The notes beneath the pieces are model-generated. The model made no database searches. It saw nothing but the letters and a program-made list of their open reading frames with translations, and was not told the DNA's origin. A stretch of 30,103 nucleotides of DNA, from positions 1 to 30,103 of IMG/VR virus record IMGVR_UViG_3300030419_000073; one strand, given 5' to 3'. Below, in pieces: positions 2-9,132 of this stretch (position 1 is the stretch's first letter; each line of letters starts with the position of its first letter). A program made the translations under genes and the position numbers. The stretch is from a virus.

Positions 2-1465
2 AGTGGCACCAGTGGCTCTGTTTCCGGTCCGTCAAAAGGCGGTGATGTTGGTGCTGGGGAATTTGGTGGGGGAACCAGCGGCACCACAGGTGGTCCCGGA
101 GGTGGTAAAAGCGGCGGGACAGCCGGTGCTTATGGCGGCTTCGACGCGGACGGCGCAAGCTGGGACTGTTTTATTAAAGGAACTCCAGTATTGATGCAGG
201 ATGGCTCTACAAAAGCCATTGAAAAAATTGCAATAGGCGATCTCGTTGCTGGTAAAGACGGCAACGCCAATGAAGTTAAAGCCACACATATTAGAAAGCC
301 AGACATTCCTTTCCTATATGGTTTCAATGGTCATAAACCCTTTGTAACAGCATACCATCCGTTTATGACAAAAGAGGGATGGGGCTGTTTTGAACCGGAG
401 AAGTTTAAAGAACATCGTCCCACTGCATATCAAGAACTTGCTGACGAACAGGACGGTAAAGACCTAATTAAAATTAAAAAGGATTGTGAAATCCTACGTA
501 GCGACAATGAATGGGTATTAGTTGAAGATATTGTTGTTGAAGGTTGTGATCCTAATCTGACAGTATATAATCTTTCCGTAGCTAATGATAAAACTTTTGT
601 AGCAAATAATTATATTGTTCATAATAAAGAAAACGGCTCGGAATGTTTTATTCCCACGGCTCAAGTTACAATGTCTGATGGTTCAAACAAACAAATAAAA
701 GATATTGAAGTTGGCGATAAAGTTATGAGTATAGATGGGGGGGTTAATACAGTTGTAGCCACTCCAGTATTTAACTTAGGCAATAATAAAATTCATGGCT
801 TCAACGGGAAAAAGCCGTTTGTTACATCAATGCACCCAATCCTTACAAAAGAAGGATGGAAAAACTTTAATCCTAAAGCATACAAAGAAAGTTGGCCGGA
901 AGATTATGAAAAAGTTGCGTCTGAAAATGCAGATGGAGTTATTCACGAGATAACAGAAAATGATGAGCTTGCTTGGAAAAATAACACGGACGATGTAACT
1001 TACGTTCCTCTTAAAGACTCAACAGTTTTGCACGAAGACTCAAACTTTAAAGTTTATAACTTAACATTAGATGGCGACCATACTTTTATTGTTGAAGGTT
1101 TGGTTGTTCACAATAAAGGTGAGGGCGGTAAAATAATTTGCACAGCCATGAACAAAATGTATGGCTTCGGCTCTTATCGCAACGCTCTGTGGATGAAGTA
1201 TCAAAGTTCTCACATGATAGCGGAGGAATATGAACTAGGCTACCATAAATTATTTATGCCTCTGGTTAAAAGAATGCCAACAAATAAGTACATTAGAGTG
1301 TTTTTAGAAAAAATGGCTAAAAATCGGACAGTAAATTTGAGAAAAGAAATGCGGGGTCAAAAAACAAACATTGAGTACAAGCTATATAAATATGCAGTTA
1401 GGCCCTTACTTTTTGCAGTTGGTTGGTTAGTTAAGAAAAAGGTACTGTCTAAGACGGAAGTGTAG
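2..1465 (+). CDS. Glycine-rich adhesin-like protein with two tandem Hint domains (5' end outside window)
   Basis: The reading frame is open from the first in-frame codon at base 2, so the gene starts upstream. The first ~55 visible residues are a collagen-like Gly/Ser/Thr stretch, as in phage tail adhesins. Two intein-like Hint domains follow (167-625 and 644-1114), separated by only six residues (KENGSE). A C-terminal domain of ~115 residues begins KGEGGKIICTAMNKMYGFGS and ends in a basic, hydrophobic tail. Both Hint domains begin with Cys and end with His-Asn, but the next residue is Lys, not Cys/Ser/Thr, so classical splicing is not expected; self-cleavage is possible. The stop TAG (1463-1465) abuts the ATG of the desaturase gene. 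A TTG at 191 could be mistaken for a start but lies inside the first Hint domain. I infer a tail or receptor-binding role from the glycine-rich region; the C-terminal domain's function is unknown to me. Confidence 0.8.
   Translation, partial: SGTSGSVSGPSKGGDVGAGEFGGGTSGTTGGPGGGKSGGTAGAYGGFDADGASWDCFIKGTPVLMQDGSTKAIEKIAIGDLVAGKDGNANEVKATHIRKPDIPFLYGFNGHKPFVTAYHPFMTKEGWGCFEPEKFKEHRPTAYQELADEQDGKDLIKIKKDCEILRSDNEWVLVEDIVVEGCDPNLTVYNLSVANDKTFVANNYIVHNKENGSECFIPTAQVTMSDGSNKQIKDIEVGDKVMSIDGGVNTVVATPVFNLGNNKIHGFNGKKPFVTSMHPILTKEGWKNFNPKAYKESWPEDYEKVASENADGVIHEITENDELAWKNNTDDVTYVPLKDSTVLHEDSNFKVYNLTLDGDHTFIVEGLVVHNKGEGGKIICTAMNKMYGFGSYRNALWMKYQSSHMIAEEYELGYHKLFMPLVKRMPTNKYIRVFLEKMAKNRTVNLRKEMRGQKTNIEYKLYKYAVRPLLFAVGWLVKKKVLSKTEV
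167..625 (+). other. Hint (intein-like) domain 1, 153 residues
   Basis: The domain starts at Cys (TGT 167-169) in the block A motif CFIKGTPVLMQDGS, followed by the typical AIEKIAIGD stretch. Block B is PFVTAYHPFMTKEGW, with the conserved T-x-x-H. The C-terminal blocks are VYNLSVANDKTFVANNYIVHN, ending in His-Asn at 620-625 and followed by Lys. No homing-endonuclease insertion fits in 153 residues. The Lys at the +1 position matches bacterial-intein-like domains that cleave rather than splice; that activity is inferred. Confidence 0.88.
644..1114 (+). other. Hint (intein-like) domain 2, 157 residues
   Basis: A second complete copy starts at Cys (644-646) with CFIPTAQVTMSDGSNKQIKD. Block B is PFVTSMHPILTKEGW and the C-terminal blocks are VYNLTLDGDHTFIVEGLVVHN, with His-Asn at 1109-1114 followed by Lys. 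The two copies align through their whole length, notably at the GFNGxKPFVT and KEGW segments. They look like an old tandem duplication that diverged while keeping every catalytic position. Confidence 0.88.
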
Positions 1466-2137
1466 ATGCTAGAAGTTTTTTTATATATATTTTTAGGTTT
1501 TTTATGGTATCAGTTTATTGCTATATTCGCAATCTCAATAGGATTACACAGGGGTCTTTGTCATAAGCAGGTTGAACTATCTAAAGCATATGAAGCGTTT
1601 GCTTTGTTTCTTGTGACTCTTACTGGAGCAAGATCACCTCTTGGGTGGATAGGCGCACACAAAATACATCATGCCACTGCAGATACTGTGGATGATCCCC
1701 ACTCTCCAGATATTAAGGGGTTTTGGAAGGTTCTTTTTAATAGGTGGACTTGCAAAAATATTCCAAGGAAGTATATTAAGGATGAGCTTAAAAATCCTAG
1801 AATTATGTTTTTCCATCAATACTGGAAACACATTCATCTCTCCGCTGCGTTAATAGCTTTGCTAATAGGTATTGATGTATTTATCGTCTTTATAGCCGTA
1901 CCTTTTATTTTAGGCTTCTTGGGTTACGGGTTTTTTAATGCAGCAGGACATAAAGACTTCAGGCCAAGAACAAACAAATGGATAAACATTCTGTCTGCCG
2001 GTGAGGGATATCACGACGCACACCACAACAATCCTAAACAGGTTAGACTTAATAAGTATGATTTGGCCGGTTTTATATTGGAAACGATAAACAAGAGAAA
2101 GTGCTTTTATGGAAGTGTATTGCTCCAGAAAAAATAG
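1466..2137 (+). CDS. Membrane fatty-acid (acyl-CoA/acyl-lipid) desaturase
   Basis: This 223-residue integral membrane protein resembles delta-9 stearoyl-CoA desaturases. All three di-iron histidine boxes are present: HRGLCH (H28, H33), HKIHH (H65, H68, H69) and HDAHH (H183, H186, H187). The accessory NAAGH motif typical of the family is also there. Hydrophobic segments lie near residues 1-25, 40-55 and 120-155. Known members insert a cis double bond into an acyl chain using O2 and electrons from a ferredoxin or cytochrome b5-type donor. It is shorter than most bacterial members (about 270-320 residues), but no box is missing. The ATG directly follows the upstream stop, and the gene is followed by three oxygenase genes. 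A phage copy could alter host membrane fluidity or acyl composition during infection; that role and the exact substrate are inferred. Confidence 0.88.
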   Translation: MLEVFLYIFLGFLWYQFIAIFAISIGLHRGLCHKQVELSKAYEAFALFLVTLTGARSPLGWIGAHKIHHATADTVDDPHSPDIKGFWKVLFNRWTCKNIPRKYIKDELKNPRIMFFHQYWKHIHLSAALIALLIGIDVFIVFIAVPFILGFLGYGFFNAAGHKDFRPRTNKWINILSAGEGYHDAHHNNPKQVRLNKYDLAGFILETINKRKCFYGSVLLQKK

Positions 2138-2939
2138 AAAAGAACTTCCTGCTTTGGGCGTGGTTAAGAATATAAAAATAAATACAAAGTTACTTATAGA
2201 ATACTGCATTGATAAGGGACTTCTTGATACTAAGCTGTATGACGACATAAATGTAACTACTCGCCCTGATGATATAAAGATGACTAGGTTTCCCCTTGTA
2301 GATGGGCGGCTTGATCCATCTTCACACTTTAATACAAATAAAGGGATGCAAAATTTTACAATAGCTAACTCTTACTGCAAGGAAAGCTTTTTTAAAGAAA
2401 AAGACGAAGGGTTTTTGCAAAGCGAAAAGTACAAACAGCTATACTTAACTGAATTTGATTCTTCAAAGCGTTCAGAAAAAGTATCTCTCAATAAAACAAC
2501 TATTTTTGAAAGAAGTAGAAGACTTAATCCAAAACATCCAAGCTATCTTCCAGAAGCCGATGAACACAACTATGGAATAAGAAATTCTTTGGTTTGCGGC
2601 GAAATTGAAAAAGTCTTAAATTGCTTTAAATCACCTCTAGCCAGAGTCAGATTTGCAAATCTATCTTCTAATTTTAAGTTAAAGCCGCACGTAGATTATG
2701 ACCCGTCTTACATAACTAGGTATCACATACCACTAAAAACAAATGAAGATTGTCTTATGTGTGTGTTTGATAAAAATGGAAAAAGTATAAAAAAACATTT
2801 ACCCGCTGATGGGCAAGTCTACTTTTTAAATACTGGTTTAAAACACTGGGCAGAAAACAACTCAAATGAGAACCGCATACATCTTATTGTAGATACAAAA
2901 AGTCAGGAGGATTTGATATCTTTACAGGAGTATAGTTAG
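2109..2939 (+). CDS. Aspartyl/asparaginyl beta-hydroxylase-like (AspH/LpxO-type) Fe(II)/2OG oxygenase
   Basis: The 276-residue protein has a C-terminal double-stranded beta-helix half resembling the Asp_Arg_Hydrox family. Visible metal ligands are H194-x-D196 (in KPHVDYD) and H246 (GLKHWAENN). R256 (NENRIHLIVD) is placed to bind 2-oxoglutarate, ten residues after the distal His. The RYHIPL strand (R204, H206) after the HxD also fits this family. The first ~110 residues are not recognisable. Relatives hydroxylate Asp/Asn side chains or, in LpxO, the secondary acyl chain of lipid A; the substrate here cannot be read from sequence. The ATG at 2109 overlaps the desaturase by 29 bases behind a weak AGAGAAAG; a GTG at 2160 is an alternative start. 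Confidence 0.78.
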   Translation: MEVYCSRKNRKELPALGVVKNIKINTKLLIEYCIDKGLLDTKLYDDINVTTRPDDIKMTRFPLVDGRLDPSSHFNTNKGMQNFTIANSYCKESFFKEKDEGFLQSEKYKQLYLTEFDSSKRSEKVSLNKTTIFERSRRLNPKHPSYLPEADEHNYGIRNSLVCGEIEKVLNCFKSPLARVRFANLSSNFKLKPHVDYDPSYITRYHIPLKTNEDCLMCVFDKNGKSIKKHLPADGQVYFLNTGLKHWAENNSNENRIHLIVDTKSQEDLISLQEYS

Positions 2940-3463
2940 TGTCTGAAGTAATTCAATTTGTAGAAGAAATGCCACAAATACCAGAAGAGTTGTTAGTATA
3001 CGACATAGATAAAATAAAGAGTGGAGTAAATAAGTTTACCGCAACACGAATTAAAAAGAAGGCTCGGTATTCTACCCACGAGGTATCTTCTAAAATACAT
3101 GAGTTTTTAAGTCCGTACTTTGATGGCGAGATAAATATACGATATCAGGTTATGAAATCTCAACTGCCGATTCATATTGATAACCATGCCACACACATTT
3201 TTAACTATGTCTTACTTACGGGTGGGGATAACGTCTTAACTAGATGGTGGAATATGCCAAAAGAAAAGCGATTGGTGTTTTTACCTAATGTCCCCCACGA
3301 TTTCTGCCGAGGGGAAGAACAGGATTACGATCAACTAATATATGAAACAGTAATACCACCAAAAAAATGGTATAAACTTCAAGTCAATATTCCACACGAT
3401 ATATCTGTAATACAGACGCCAAGATTAGGGATTACTGTGTGGGAGAAAAAAGATGAACTCTGA
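2939..3463 (+). CDS. Small Fe(II)/2OG-oxygenase-like or cupin-fold protein
   Basis: This 174-residue protein starts at a GTG sharing its first base with the upstream stop (TAGTG), which implies translational coupling. A core double-stranded beta-helix is suggested by H79-x-D81 (PIHIDNHATH), a second His 72 residues after D81 (H153, in NIPHD) and an Arg nine residues later (R162, in PRLGITV). That layout, HxD...H...R, is the Fe/2OG oxygenase signature. The sequence is divergent, and H115 in the LPNVPHDF segment could be the distal ligand instead. I cannot assign a substrate. It sits between an AspH-like and a TauD-like gene, both overlapping, so a role in the same modification pathway is plausible but inferred. 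Confidence 0.62.
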   Translation: MSEVIQFVEEMPQIPEELLVYDIDKIKSGVNKFTATRIKKKARYSTHEVSSKIHEFLSPYFDGEINIRYQVMKSQLPIHIDNHATHIFNYVLLTGGDNVLTRWWNMPKEKRLVFLPNVPHDFCRGEEQDYDQLIYETVIPPKKWYKLQVNIPHDISVIQTPRLGITVWEKKDEL

Positions 3464-4445
3464 TGTTGCGTATTTCTTAAAAACAAACATTAAAGATTTA
3501 TCAGATGATCAAGTTAAGAAAATTTCAATATTAACAGCATATAATATAAATGTTGTAATTAAAGATCAGGATTTTACTAAAAAAGAACTTGCAAAATTAT
3601 ATTCTTTGTGGGGTCAAAATCCAAAACGAAAGCTTTGGTACGAAGATAAAGAAAACCACGAAGTAATGTATGTTACTAACAAGCACAAAATTGGCAAAGA
3701 AAAAAAGCAGGGGGTTTTTGCTAACGGAGAATTAGGATGGCATTGTGATGGTGCTTTGGCACTTGATCCAGAGGATTGTATAGCTCTGTATTGCCGCCAA
3801 CCTACAAAAGACCCTTGTAACACAATTTTCTCTAACGGAGTGCTTGCGTATAAAACTTTACCCAAAGACGTTAAGGAGCAGATTAAAGATACGTTTCTTA
3901 TATTAGGATACGGAGAGAGAAACTTTCAAAAACTAAAGTTAGACTACTTAGTTAAAACTAAAATTCAGCCGAGGCTATTAAGTAACACCATACCTTACGA
4001 GGTAGACAACGGCAAAGTTTCTTTGGAAGAACATAGAGAGATGCTAGCAGTGTCTAGTAGGGCCAGATCAAAAAATTCTTCTGTAGTTAAAGAGATGCTG
4101 CATCTTAAATCCCGCTTTTCTGATCCAAAAGGTTTGTGGAATTGCGTGTATAAGAAGCTAGTCCATAGGCACAGATTAACAGGCGTAGAAGGACTTTACT
4201 TTCCTTTCACAAATGCTGTTGGATTTAACAATGTGCCAAAAGATGAATGGCAGGAATTATGTGCTTTTTTAGAAAGCCATTATCTAAAACATACATATTC
4301 ACATTTTTGGGAAGAAGGCGATATTGTAGTATTTGATCAGACACAGGGGTTACATAGAAGAGACAACATACCTGTAGACGAAAATAACATTCCTCAAGAA
4401 AGAGAGCTTTGGCGAGGTGCTTTTTGGTATGATGGAATTGTATAA
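3453..4445 (+). CDS. TauD/TfdA-like Fe(II)/2OG dioxygenase
   Basis: The 330-residue protein has the TauD/clavaminate-synthase-like layout. H97-x-D99 lies in LGWHCDGAL, the distal H301 in DQTQGLHRRD, and R321 in RELWRGAFWYDG. The N-terminal region (INVVIKDQDFTKKELAKLYS) resembles the start of the TauD fold. The gap from H301 to R321 is 20 residues rather than the ~15 of TauD, because of a longer loop. Known members hydroxylate small molecules such as taurine, 2,4-D, carnitine precursors and amino acids; the substrate here is unknown. It overlaps the upstream oxygenase by 11 bases and ends 12 bases before the next gene. Base composition is very A+T-rich: a hand count of 3481-3540 gives 13 G+C of 60. 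Confidence 0.82.
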   Translation: MNSDVAYFLKTNIKDLSDDQVKKISILTAYNINVVIKDQDFTKKELAKLYSLWGQNPKRKLWYEDKENHEVMYVTNKHKIGKEKKQGVFANGELGWHCDGALALDPEDCIALYCRQPTKDPCNTIFSNGVLAYKTLPKDVKEQIKDTFLILGYGERNFQKLKLDYLVKTKIQPRLLSNTIPYEVDNGKVSLEEHREMLAVSSRARSKNSSVVKEMLHLKSRFSDPKGLWNCVYKKLVHRHRLTGVEGLYFPFTNAVGFNNVPKDEWQELCAFLESHYLKHTYSHFWEEGDIVVFDQTQGLHRRDNIPVDENNIPQERELWRGAFWYDGIV

Positions 4446-8496: not shown

Positions 8497-9132
8497 ATGT
8501 TTATCAAGCTACTAACTGAAGATGAAGTAAATTTTTGTCTGGACAAGATTGACCAGAACACGTTTAAGAATGGGGAAGATACTGCCCCTGATCTAGAGGA
8601 CATAAAAAGTAACAAAGAATCAAATGGTGTCCCAGATGAGGTAAGAAAGCTAGTCACAGACAAGCTATATGATACACACTATATTGACAGCGTGTATTGT
8701 CCTACCAGAGTATCAGTAAATTTTTACAACAAGTATCTTGAAGGCGATTACTACGATTTACACATAGACGCTTTCAAGGCAAGGCCAAAATCAAACAACG
8801 TATTTTTTGACTACGGCTGGAGCATAAACTTAACAGATGACTACGAAGGGGGAGAATTTACTTTATCCACGCCAGTAGGACGGATAGGTAAGAAACTAAA
8901 CGCAGGTGAAGCTGTAATCTTTCCTATCATTTACCCTCATGGTGTGGAAAAAGTTACCAAGGGATTTAGGCAAAATATAATTGGATGGATGTCTTCTAAC
9001 GTATCCTACGAACAGTCTTTTATTTTGCAGAACATGTACGAAGTAAACGCTTATCTTATGCAAGCTCAAAAGGACATGTTTACAAAATCAACGCTCGTTC
9101 AAATGTACTTAAAGAAGGCTTGGGGAATGTAA
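8497..9132 (+). CDS. Prolyl-4-hydroxylase-type (P4H/PKHD) Fe(II)/2OG oxygenase
   Basis: The 211-residue protein has the full signature of the P4H-type 2OG-Fe(II) oxygenases. H89-x-D91 lies in YYDLHIDAF, with a typical SINLTDDYEGGEF strand pair, distal H148 (IIYPHGVEK) and R158 (GFRQNIIGWMSS) exactly ten residues later. Residues ~165-211 form a helical tail. Such enzymes hydroxylate prolyl or other side chains, or small molecules; the substrate is unknown. The gene sits between the capsid module and the tail module, downstream of a terminator-like hairpin. It is more A+T-rich than its neighbours (20 G+C of 60 at 8701-8760), like an inserted accessory gene. Confidence 0.85.
   Translation: MFIKLLTEDEVNFCLDKIDQNTFKNGEDTAPDLEDIKSNKESNGVPDEVRKLVTDKLYDTHYIDSVYCPTRVSVNFYNKYLEGDYYDLHIDAFKARPKSNNVFFDYGWSINLTDDYEGGEFTLSTPVGRIGKKLNAGEAVIFPIIYPHGVEKVTKGFRQNIIGWMSSNVSYEQSFILQNMYEVNAYLMQAQKDMFTKSTLVQMYLKKAWGM

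Follow-up and report, generated by a model that had tools for sequence, protein, structure and literature searches.

A desaturase-like gene and an AspH-type hydroxylase gene form the linked core of a cargo cassette in an HMO-2011-like podovirus

Introduction

Near the start of the virus record IMGVR_UViG_3300030419_000073 (IMG/VR), four consecutive genes appear to specify enzymes that use iron and oxygen, and their close packing raises the question of whether they are a fixed set serving one pathway, and what such a set might modify. The DNA analysed, referred to here as the window, is the 30,103 bp stretch from position 1 to 30,103 of that record, and the cassette comprises four open reading frames (ORFs) on the + strand between positions 1466 and 4445. 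An earlier note, made from the sequence alone, had described these ORFs as overlapping by 29, 1 and 11 bases and as a desaturase followed by three distinct Fe(II)/2-oxoglutarate (2OG) oxygenases. The coordinates and overlaps were rechecked and are as it gave them. The enzyme identities held for the desaturase (DES), AspH and TauD proteins, all of which score above their Pfam cut-offs, but the third ORF falls under its cut-off and is only a probable 2OG oxygenase. As set out below, the core of the cassette is the DES-AspH pair.

1466..2137, + strand: DES, a short membrane di-iron desaturase-like enzyme, core of the module (PF00487, profile match to 4ymk, conserved ligands)
2109..2939, + strand: AspH-type Fe(II)/2OG hydroxylase, core of the module (PF05118, AlphaFold model, conserved ligands)
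2939..3463, + strand: JmjC-like putative Fe(II)/2OG oxygenase, accessory (homologue in L018; H79, D81 and H153)
3453..4445, + strand: TauD-type Fe(II)/2OG oxygenase, accessory (PF02668; homologues in L016 and L017)

Results

The phage and its cassette

The coat protein of the window phage shares 56% identity with its counterpart in pelagiphage HTVC033P and about 41% with that of HMO-2011, and the gene order also corresponds to that of HMO-2011-type podoviruses. DNA polymerase and terminase genes were not identified within the 30 kb fragment, and it is by coat protein and gene order that the window phage is classed as an HMO-2011-like podovirus. A DNA-level search of the first 10 kb of the window against phage records gave no match.

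The cassette ORFs code for proteins of 223, 276, 174 (GTG start) and 330 aa, in that order. Pairwise comparison with relatives gave dN/dS values of 0.09–0.19 for all four genes (0.105 for the capsid gene), which indicates that all four proteins are maintained by purifying selection. The GC content of the cassette is 34–37%, compared with 42–52% for most neighbouring structural genes, as expected for cargo. A terminator-like site on the forward strand was not found within the cassette, and the four genes would probably be co-expressed.

The two core enzymes

DES matches the fatty acid desaturase family PF00487 (FA_desaturase; E 3e-10, 40.7 bits, cut-off 29.7), and its profile matches the acyl-CoA desaturase structure 4ymk (E 4e-13) and stearoyl-CoA desaturases. 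It scores far below the equivalog cut-off of the DesA family NF049918 of NCBIfam (59 bits, cut-off 400). In an alignment of 11 sequences, H65, H68, H69, N158, H162, H183, H186 and H187 are invariant, and H28 and H33 are nearly so; by analogy with SCD1, these His and Asn residues are taken to be ligands of the di-iron centre.

The second protein belongs to PF05118 (Asp_Arg_Hydrox; E 4e-12, 46.8 bits, cut-off 22.6), and its AlphaFold model (pLDDT 84.6) has the double-stranded beta-helix fold, with Z scores of 13–17 to Cpz10, AspH and prolyl hydroxylases. The closest structure in the PDB is Cpz10 (Z 16.7, 158 residues at 2.8 Å), which is the closest solved relative by sequence as well as by fold. 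Across 28 sequences with a mean column identity of only 38%, the residues H194, D196, H246 and R256 (the HxD...H motif and 2OG-binding Arg) are invariant. The match to the NCBIfam LpxO model (E 4e-7, 29.5 bits) is far under the equivalog cut-off of 500, and no transmembrane anchor was seen in it by inspection.

Linkage of DES and AspH across phages

A scan of viral contigs with DES recovered 51 loci, 32 of them non-redundant, and an AspH- or TauD-type cluster lies no more than four ORFs from DES in all but one of the latter (31/32). Many marine phages share a common gene order, namely a small protein, DES, AspH, a GNAT-like protein, AspH or TauD, and another 2OG-like protein. To avoid circularity, viral contigs were also scanned with AspH only, with clustering at 90% identity and a limit of 6 kb. 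Of 37 clusters, 33 had DES within that distance of AspH, 28 of these with DES upstream on the same strand and 15 with the two genes directly adjacent; the four clusters without a nearby DES include one contig with less than 4.2 kb of total flank. Control scans placed DES within 6 kb of PKHD genes in 2 of 28 clusters and of NodU-type carbamoyltransferase genes in 4 of 26 (Fisher p 1e-11 and 5e-9, respectively), although the limit may understate the NodU rate, as NodU and DES often lie 5–6 kb apart within one island. The proximity of DES to AspH is thus commoner than that of either control.

The linkage persists where DES identity has fallen to 25–40%, across diverse phage contigs and bacterial clusters. 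At L061 the desaturase is only 38% identical to that of the window but lies between an ICT domain and an AspH with 77% identity, and this displacement of a desaturase in place between conserved flanks argues that DES and AspH work together. DES followed by a full-length homologue of the TauD in the window (44–47% identity) and then AspH is found at L100, L104, L105, L107, L108, L111 and L123, and loci that hold all three usually hold more 2OG enzymes. Some larger islands also carry carbamoyltransferase and radical SAM genes, and some DES-AspH clusters adjoin genes that resemble, by eye, nucleotide-sugar or glycosyltransferase genes. Taken together, the gene neighbourhoods show a DES-AspH linkage that is old and specific, and a cassette that has grown stepwise.

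Two further features of these clusters were noted. In most pelagimyophage clusters DES is immediately preceded by c3, a conserved protein about 100 aa long with no family match (L011 7695–7994 and 21 other loci). In both L084 and L087, a single AspH gene is surrounded by three desaturase-like genes in about 5 kb, and a TauD is present as well.

A counterpart in Bdellovibrionales

When bacterial genomes were searched with the AspH alignment, two contigs of metagenome-assembled genomes (MAGs) of Bdellovibrionota were retrieved; the same type of search with the DES alignment confirmed no relative. A search across the order Bdellovibrionales gave a match in 25 of 141 genomes, in four of which it spans all or most of the profile, and six regions were examined. 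In each, DES and an AspH-type gene are no more than about 6 kb apart, and the contigs hold DES, AspH, GNAT-like and 2OG genes together. One of them, L246, has families of the phage type arranged as they are in phages (AspH c9, GNAT-like c2, AspH, 2OG c6 and 2OG c22).

Radical SAM proteins and small proteins with an RR start are also present in these clusters (L136 and L243–L247), and L247 encodes a protein with a sub-threshold match to FeeM (N-acyl amino acid synthase). Kinship between the phage protein c3 and the small RR-start proteins was considered and rejected, with a profile comparison of 2.4%.

Accessory genes

The third ORF matches PF02373 (JmjC) at E 0.011 and 16.7 bits, under the cut-off of 24, but H79, D81 and H153 are invariant across seven sequences, and it is best regarded as a putative 2OG oxygenase, probable but unproven. 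An AlphaFold model from a two-sequence alignment was unusable (pLDDT 29), a PDB profile search with seven sequences returned nothing credible, and comparison with the AspH profile gave a probability of 1.4%. Among its podovirus relatives only the window carries this gene, and its sole close homologue (79%) is at L018, where it does not adjoin DES.

The fourth protein is a clear member of PF02668 (E 1e-29, 104.7 bits, cut-off 27). Its nearest homologues, at L016 and L017 (80%), do not adjoin DES either, and the best relatives found for it are carbapenem synthase and ScoE, an enzyme that acts on N-carboxymethyl amino fatty acids. The metal motif in the window is HCD. Across homologues the first and the distal His and the Arg do not vary. 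The Asp is replaced by Asn in several, including one that is 80% identical (L016 7995–8984, HxN). The metal-ligand residues are kept in DES, AspH and the JmjC-like protein (H/D/H), but the Asp is not kept throughout the TauD group.

A variable slot among podovirus relatives

The cassette lies directly 3' of a structural protein with Hint-type domains and a C-terminal ICT domain, and is followed by a gene with a cell-wall-hydrolase domain. The features around it are as follows.

2..1465, + strand: structural protein, truncated at its 5' end, carrying two Hint-type domains and, at the C terminus, an ICT domain (Pfam Hom_end_hint, Vint, Hint)
1127..1462, + strand: ICT domain, about 112 aa, KIICTAMNKMYGFG..., 77% identical in L060 and L061
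4458..6047, + strand: cell-wall-hydrolase-domain protein, right border of the slot, outside the module (PF07486, E 4e-13)
8497..9132, + strand: PKHD-type 2OG oxygenase of the structural block, outside the cassette (PF13640, PRK05467)

Between the Hint/ICT-domain protein and the hydrolase gene, relatives that share the structural genes display four states. The slot is empty in L138 and L139 (capsid 98% identical), with the hydrolase gene coming straight after that for the Hint protein; L158 and L215 have a lone divergent desaturase there, and L140 has one that the contig edge cuts; L003–L008 and L153 have DES and AspH; and only the window has DES, AspH, the JmjC-like gene and TauD. The empty slot of the nearest relatives, L138 and L139, bears out the earlier description of the cassette as cargo. 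The proposal that its enzymes form a recurring set fared less evenly: a combination does recur as a module and the DES-AspH pair is kept in relatives, but the four genes are not a conserved set, since near relatives have DES and AspH only, or DES alone, and the JmjC-like and TauD genes are closest to those of other phages (L018 and L016/L017, respectively). To judge from these comparisons, the four cassette genes are not inherited as one unit, and the core is DES plus AspH.

Homologues of the two accessory genes circulate in one phage pool, since L010, in which DES (71% identity) lies beside another TauD-type gene, has further genes in common with L017. Identity values also differ between the core genes, with AspH of the window at 79% to L060/L061 and 71% to podovirus relatives, and DES at 88% to L006, a podovirus relative, and 70% to L060. 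By this measure, the window is a mosaic in its AspH and DES ancestry.

The upstream gene had been labelled an adhesin, for which no support was found; it codes instead for the Hint domains and C-terminal ICT domain, and its full-length relative in L006 is 1199 aa. The tandem Hint-type domains (within 2–1465) end in HNK and lack the Cys, Ser or Thr that follows a splicing intein, so the protein may self-cleave rather than splice. A fifth oxygenase does exist at 8497 (ATG at 8497; PF13640, 2OG-FeII_Oxy_3, E 1e-8; NCBIfam PRK05467, E 4e-26), but it is a gene of the structural block and not a cassette member. With at least 80 relatives, nearly all without DES, it is a stable part of the capsid/tail block in this podovirus group.

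The ICT domain and a split structural gene

ICT domains share a Cys-Thr motif and a hydrophobic end; they cap numerous structural proteins of phages, and a Gly/Asp-rich linker often precedes them. C-terminal copies were noted in the window, L060, L061, L009, L138, L158, L194, L214, L215 and L329. Every DES in a structural slot has an ICT domain directly upstream (the window, the L002–L007 group, L009, L060, L061, L158 and L215), and ICT domains without DES occur in HTVC033P, L138, L194, L214 and L329.

In the T4-like contigs L060 and L061, an ICT domain-DES-AspH unit interrupts a gene that is a single 2127-aa ORF in Melnitz EXVC044M. The upstream ORF corresponds to Melnitz residues 2–1331 followed by the ICT domain, the downstream ORF to residues 1370–2127, and PHROG 358 is split likewise in L060. 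The Melnitz-type gene is baseplate-adjacent (L060 1017–9306, L061 904–9300, L328 583–6966). The split gene is a plain example of cargo that has entered a structural gene and brought a capping domain with it.

Discussion

Phage desaturases, clusters of 2OG and ferrochelatase genes, and the AspH and desaturase of pelagimyophages as separate genes are already known. Marine-phage PF00487 desaturases (viral fatty-acid desaturases, vFAD) have conserved His boxes and are proposed to act on membrane lipids (PMC7300359); the window DES differs in being short (223 aa) and set in a 2OG-oxygenase cassette, and linkage to AspH is not described in the available part of that paper. HTVC023P-type pelagiphages carry pairs of 2OG-Fe(II) oxygenase and ferrochelatase genes (PMC9599517), which resemble the cassette as co-located 2OG cargo in marine podoviruses, but there the partner is annotated as ferrochelatase and the word "desaturase" is absent from the paper. 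In pelagimyophages, AspH is reported as a core gene and a stearoyl-CoA desaturase occurs in freshwater members (PMC7029224), while the accessible text on their auxiliary metabolic gene islands describes no linked DES-AspH module, podovirus carrier or ICT insertion. The isolate Mosig EXVC030M has DES, two AspH, TauD and an N-acetyltransferase within about 7 kb. HMO-2011-type podoviruses (HTVC033P and HMO-2011) resemble the window in how the ICT/hypothetical protein, the scaffold-position gene and the coat gene are ordered, but no such cassette is annotated in the slot of HTVC033P, and "desaturase" is not among the words of the paper on HMO-2011-type genomes. Descriptions of the DES-AspH linkage, its Bdellovibrionales counterpart and the split gene were not found in the open-licence literature, outside which most subscription papers lie.

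We propose that the cassette is a mobile oxidative tailoring module in a variable podovirus slot, and consider the chances about even that DES and AspH act in one pathway on the same small molecule with amino-acid and acyl parts, or on a specialised lipid, belonging to the infected cell. DES, in the membrane, would desaturate or hydroxylate the acyl chain; hydroxylation of the amino-acid-like part of the same molecule would fall to AspH, a soluble enzyme. Interchangeable accessory enzymes could then add further oxidations or acylations, these being TauD and the JmjC-like protein in the window, and GNAT, other AspH or TauD and more 2OG enzymes elsewhere. Tailoring of a small molecule or specialised lipid is favoured over a bulk membrane change because of the resemblance of AspH to Cpz10, of TauD to carbapenem synthase and ScoE, and of DES to acyl-CoA desaturases. 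Cpz10 is the caprazamycin beta-hydroxylase (7V4F/7V4M) and hydroxylates an aminoacyl nucleoside intermediate (PMC9814697); the window AspH is only 22% identical to it over the aligned part and longer (276 aa against a 168-residue chain), and no nucleoside-antibiotic genes were recognised beside it.

Several observations weigh against a common tailoring pathway. Next to the cassette, the window showed no gene that would define the substrate, such as one for a carrier protein or a ligase, and the step from enzyme to substrate is weak given homologues this distant (about 20% identity for AspH). L158 and L215 have DES but no AspH, and L039 has DES with neither AspH nor TauD of any kind. Accessory genes vary widely, which makes a single fixed product unlikely. 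Both bacterial starting matches are MAG contigs, and the regions examined in Bdellovibrionales likewise come from MAGs, for which mis-binning is possible, although several of these regions have ordinary bacterial genes on the same contig.

Modification of host envelope lipids would account for some of the same data. DES would then alter bulk acyl chains and so fluidity, and AspH would play the part of LpxO, with lipid A as substrate, or of OlsC, with ornithine lipids, perhaps changing the surface or blocking superinfection. The profile match of DES to stearoyl-CoA desaturases agrees with this, as do the weak LpxO match of AspH, the nucleotide-sugar or glycosyltransferase-looking neighbours in some clusters, and the proposal that viral fatty-acid desaturases alter membrane fluidity (PMC7300359). 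We nevertheless think it rather unlikely, as the LpxO score is a small fraction of its cut-off, the AspH model is nearest to Cpz10, prolyl hydroxylases and human AspH and appears to have no membrane anchor, and a change in bulk fluidity needs no AspH, TauD or GNAT partners. An ornithine-lipid pathway (GNAT, AspH-type and di-iron enzymes) is a lead, although the phage GNAT-like protein matches GNAT families, and one GNAT-like protein of Bdellovibrionales matches FeeM, only below cut-off. The genes might also have no common pathway, having simply accumulated at insertion hotspots, as the variability of the slot, the mixed phage origins of the accessory genes and the solitary occurrences of DES would allow; this is unlikely in view of the contrast between 33 of 37 clusters for DES-AspH and 15% or less for the other cargo (NodU and PKHD), and of a linkage that outlasts deep divergence of DES in phages and bacteria alike.

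The position of the ICT domain directly before every structural-slot DES, and the joint movement of ICT domain, DES and AspH into an unrelated tail-region gene, could mean that the two enzymes modify the virion; their target would be the structural protein with the ICT domain, perhaps an acyl chain attached to its conserved cysteine. With ICT domains that stand without DES, as listed above, and none found near DES in the many pelagimyophage-type DES-AspH clusters, we regard this as improbable. More speculative still, and very doubtful, is that [ICT C-terminal domain]-DES-AspH is a mobile unit that enters inside or behind virion structural genes, in which the ICT domain would cap the interrupted protein and the enzymes would oxidise, in two steps, a molecule tied to it, such as an acyl group on that cysteine. 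If true, the unit would represent a new type of gene-splitting cargo, one that both caps and modifies the product of the gene it interrupts. Hypermodification of nucleic acids, as with other phage 2OG enzymes, was considered in light of the carbamoyltransferase and radical SAM genes of some larger islands, but a membrane desaturase has no obvious role in DNA modification, no cassette oxygenase matched a TET/JBP-type family, and we judge it extremely improbable.

Phage desaturases and 2OG oxygenases have so far been read separately, the former in terms of membrane fluidity and the latter without a clear function. That DES and AspH are neighbours in widely differing phages, and in certain predatory bacteria as well, suggests a shared tailoring pathway that is passed among phages. 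If the two are indeed halves of one module that predatory bacteria also have, the working hypothesis for these genes would shift from membrane fluidity to the making or tailoring of a specific compound.

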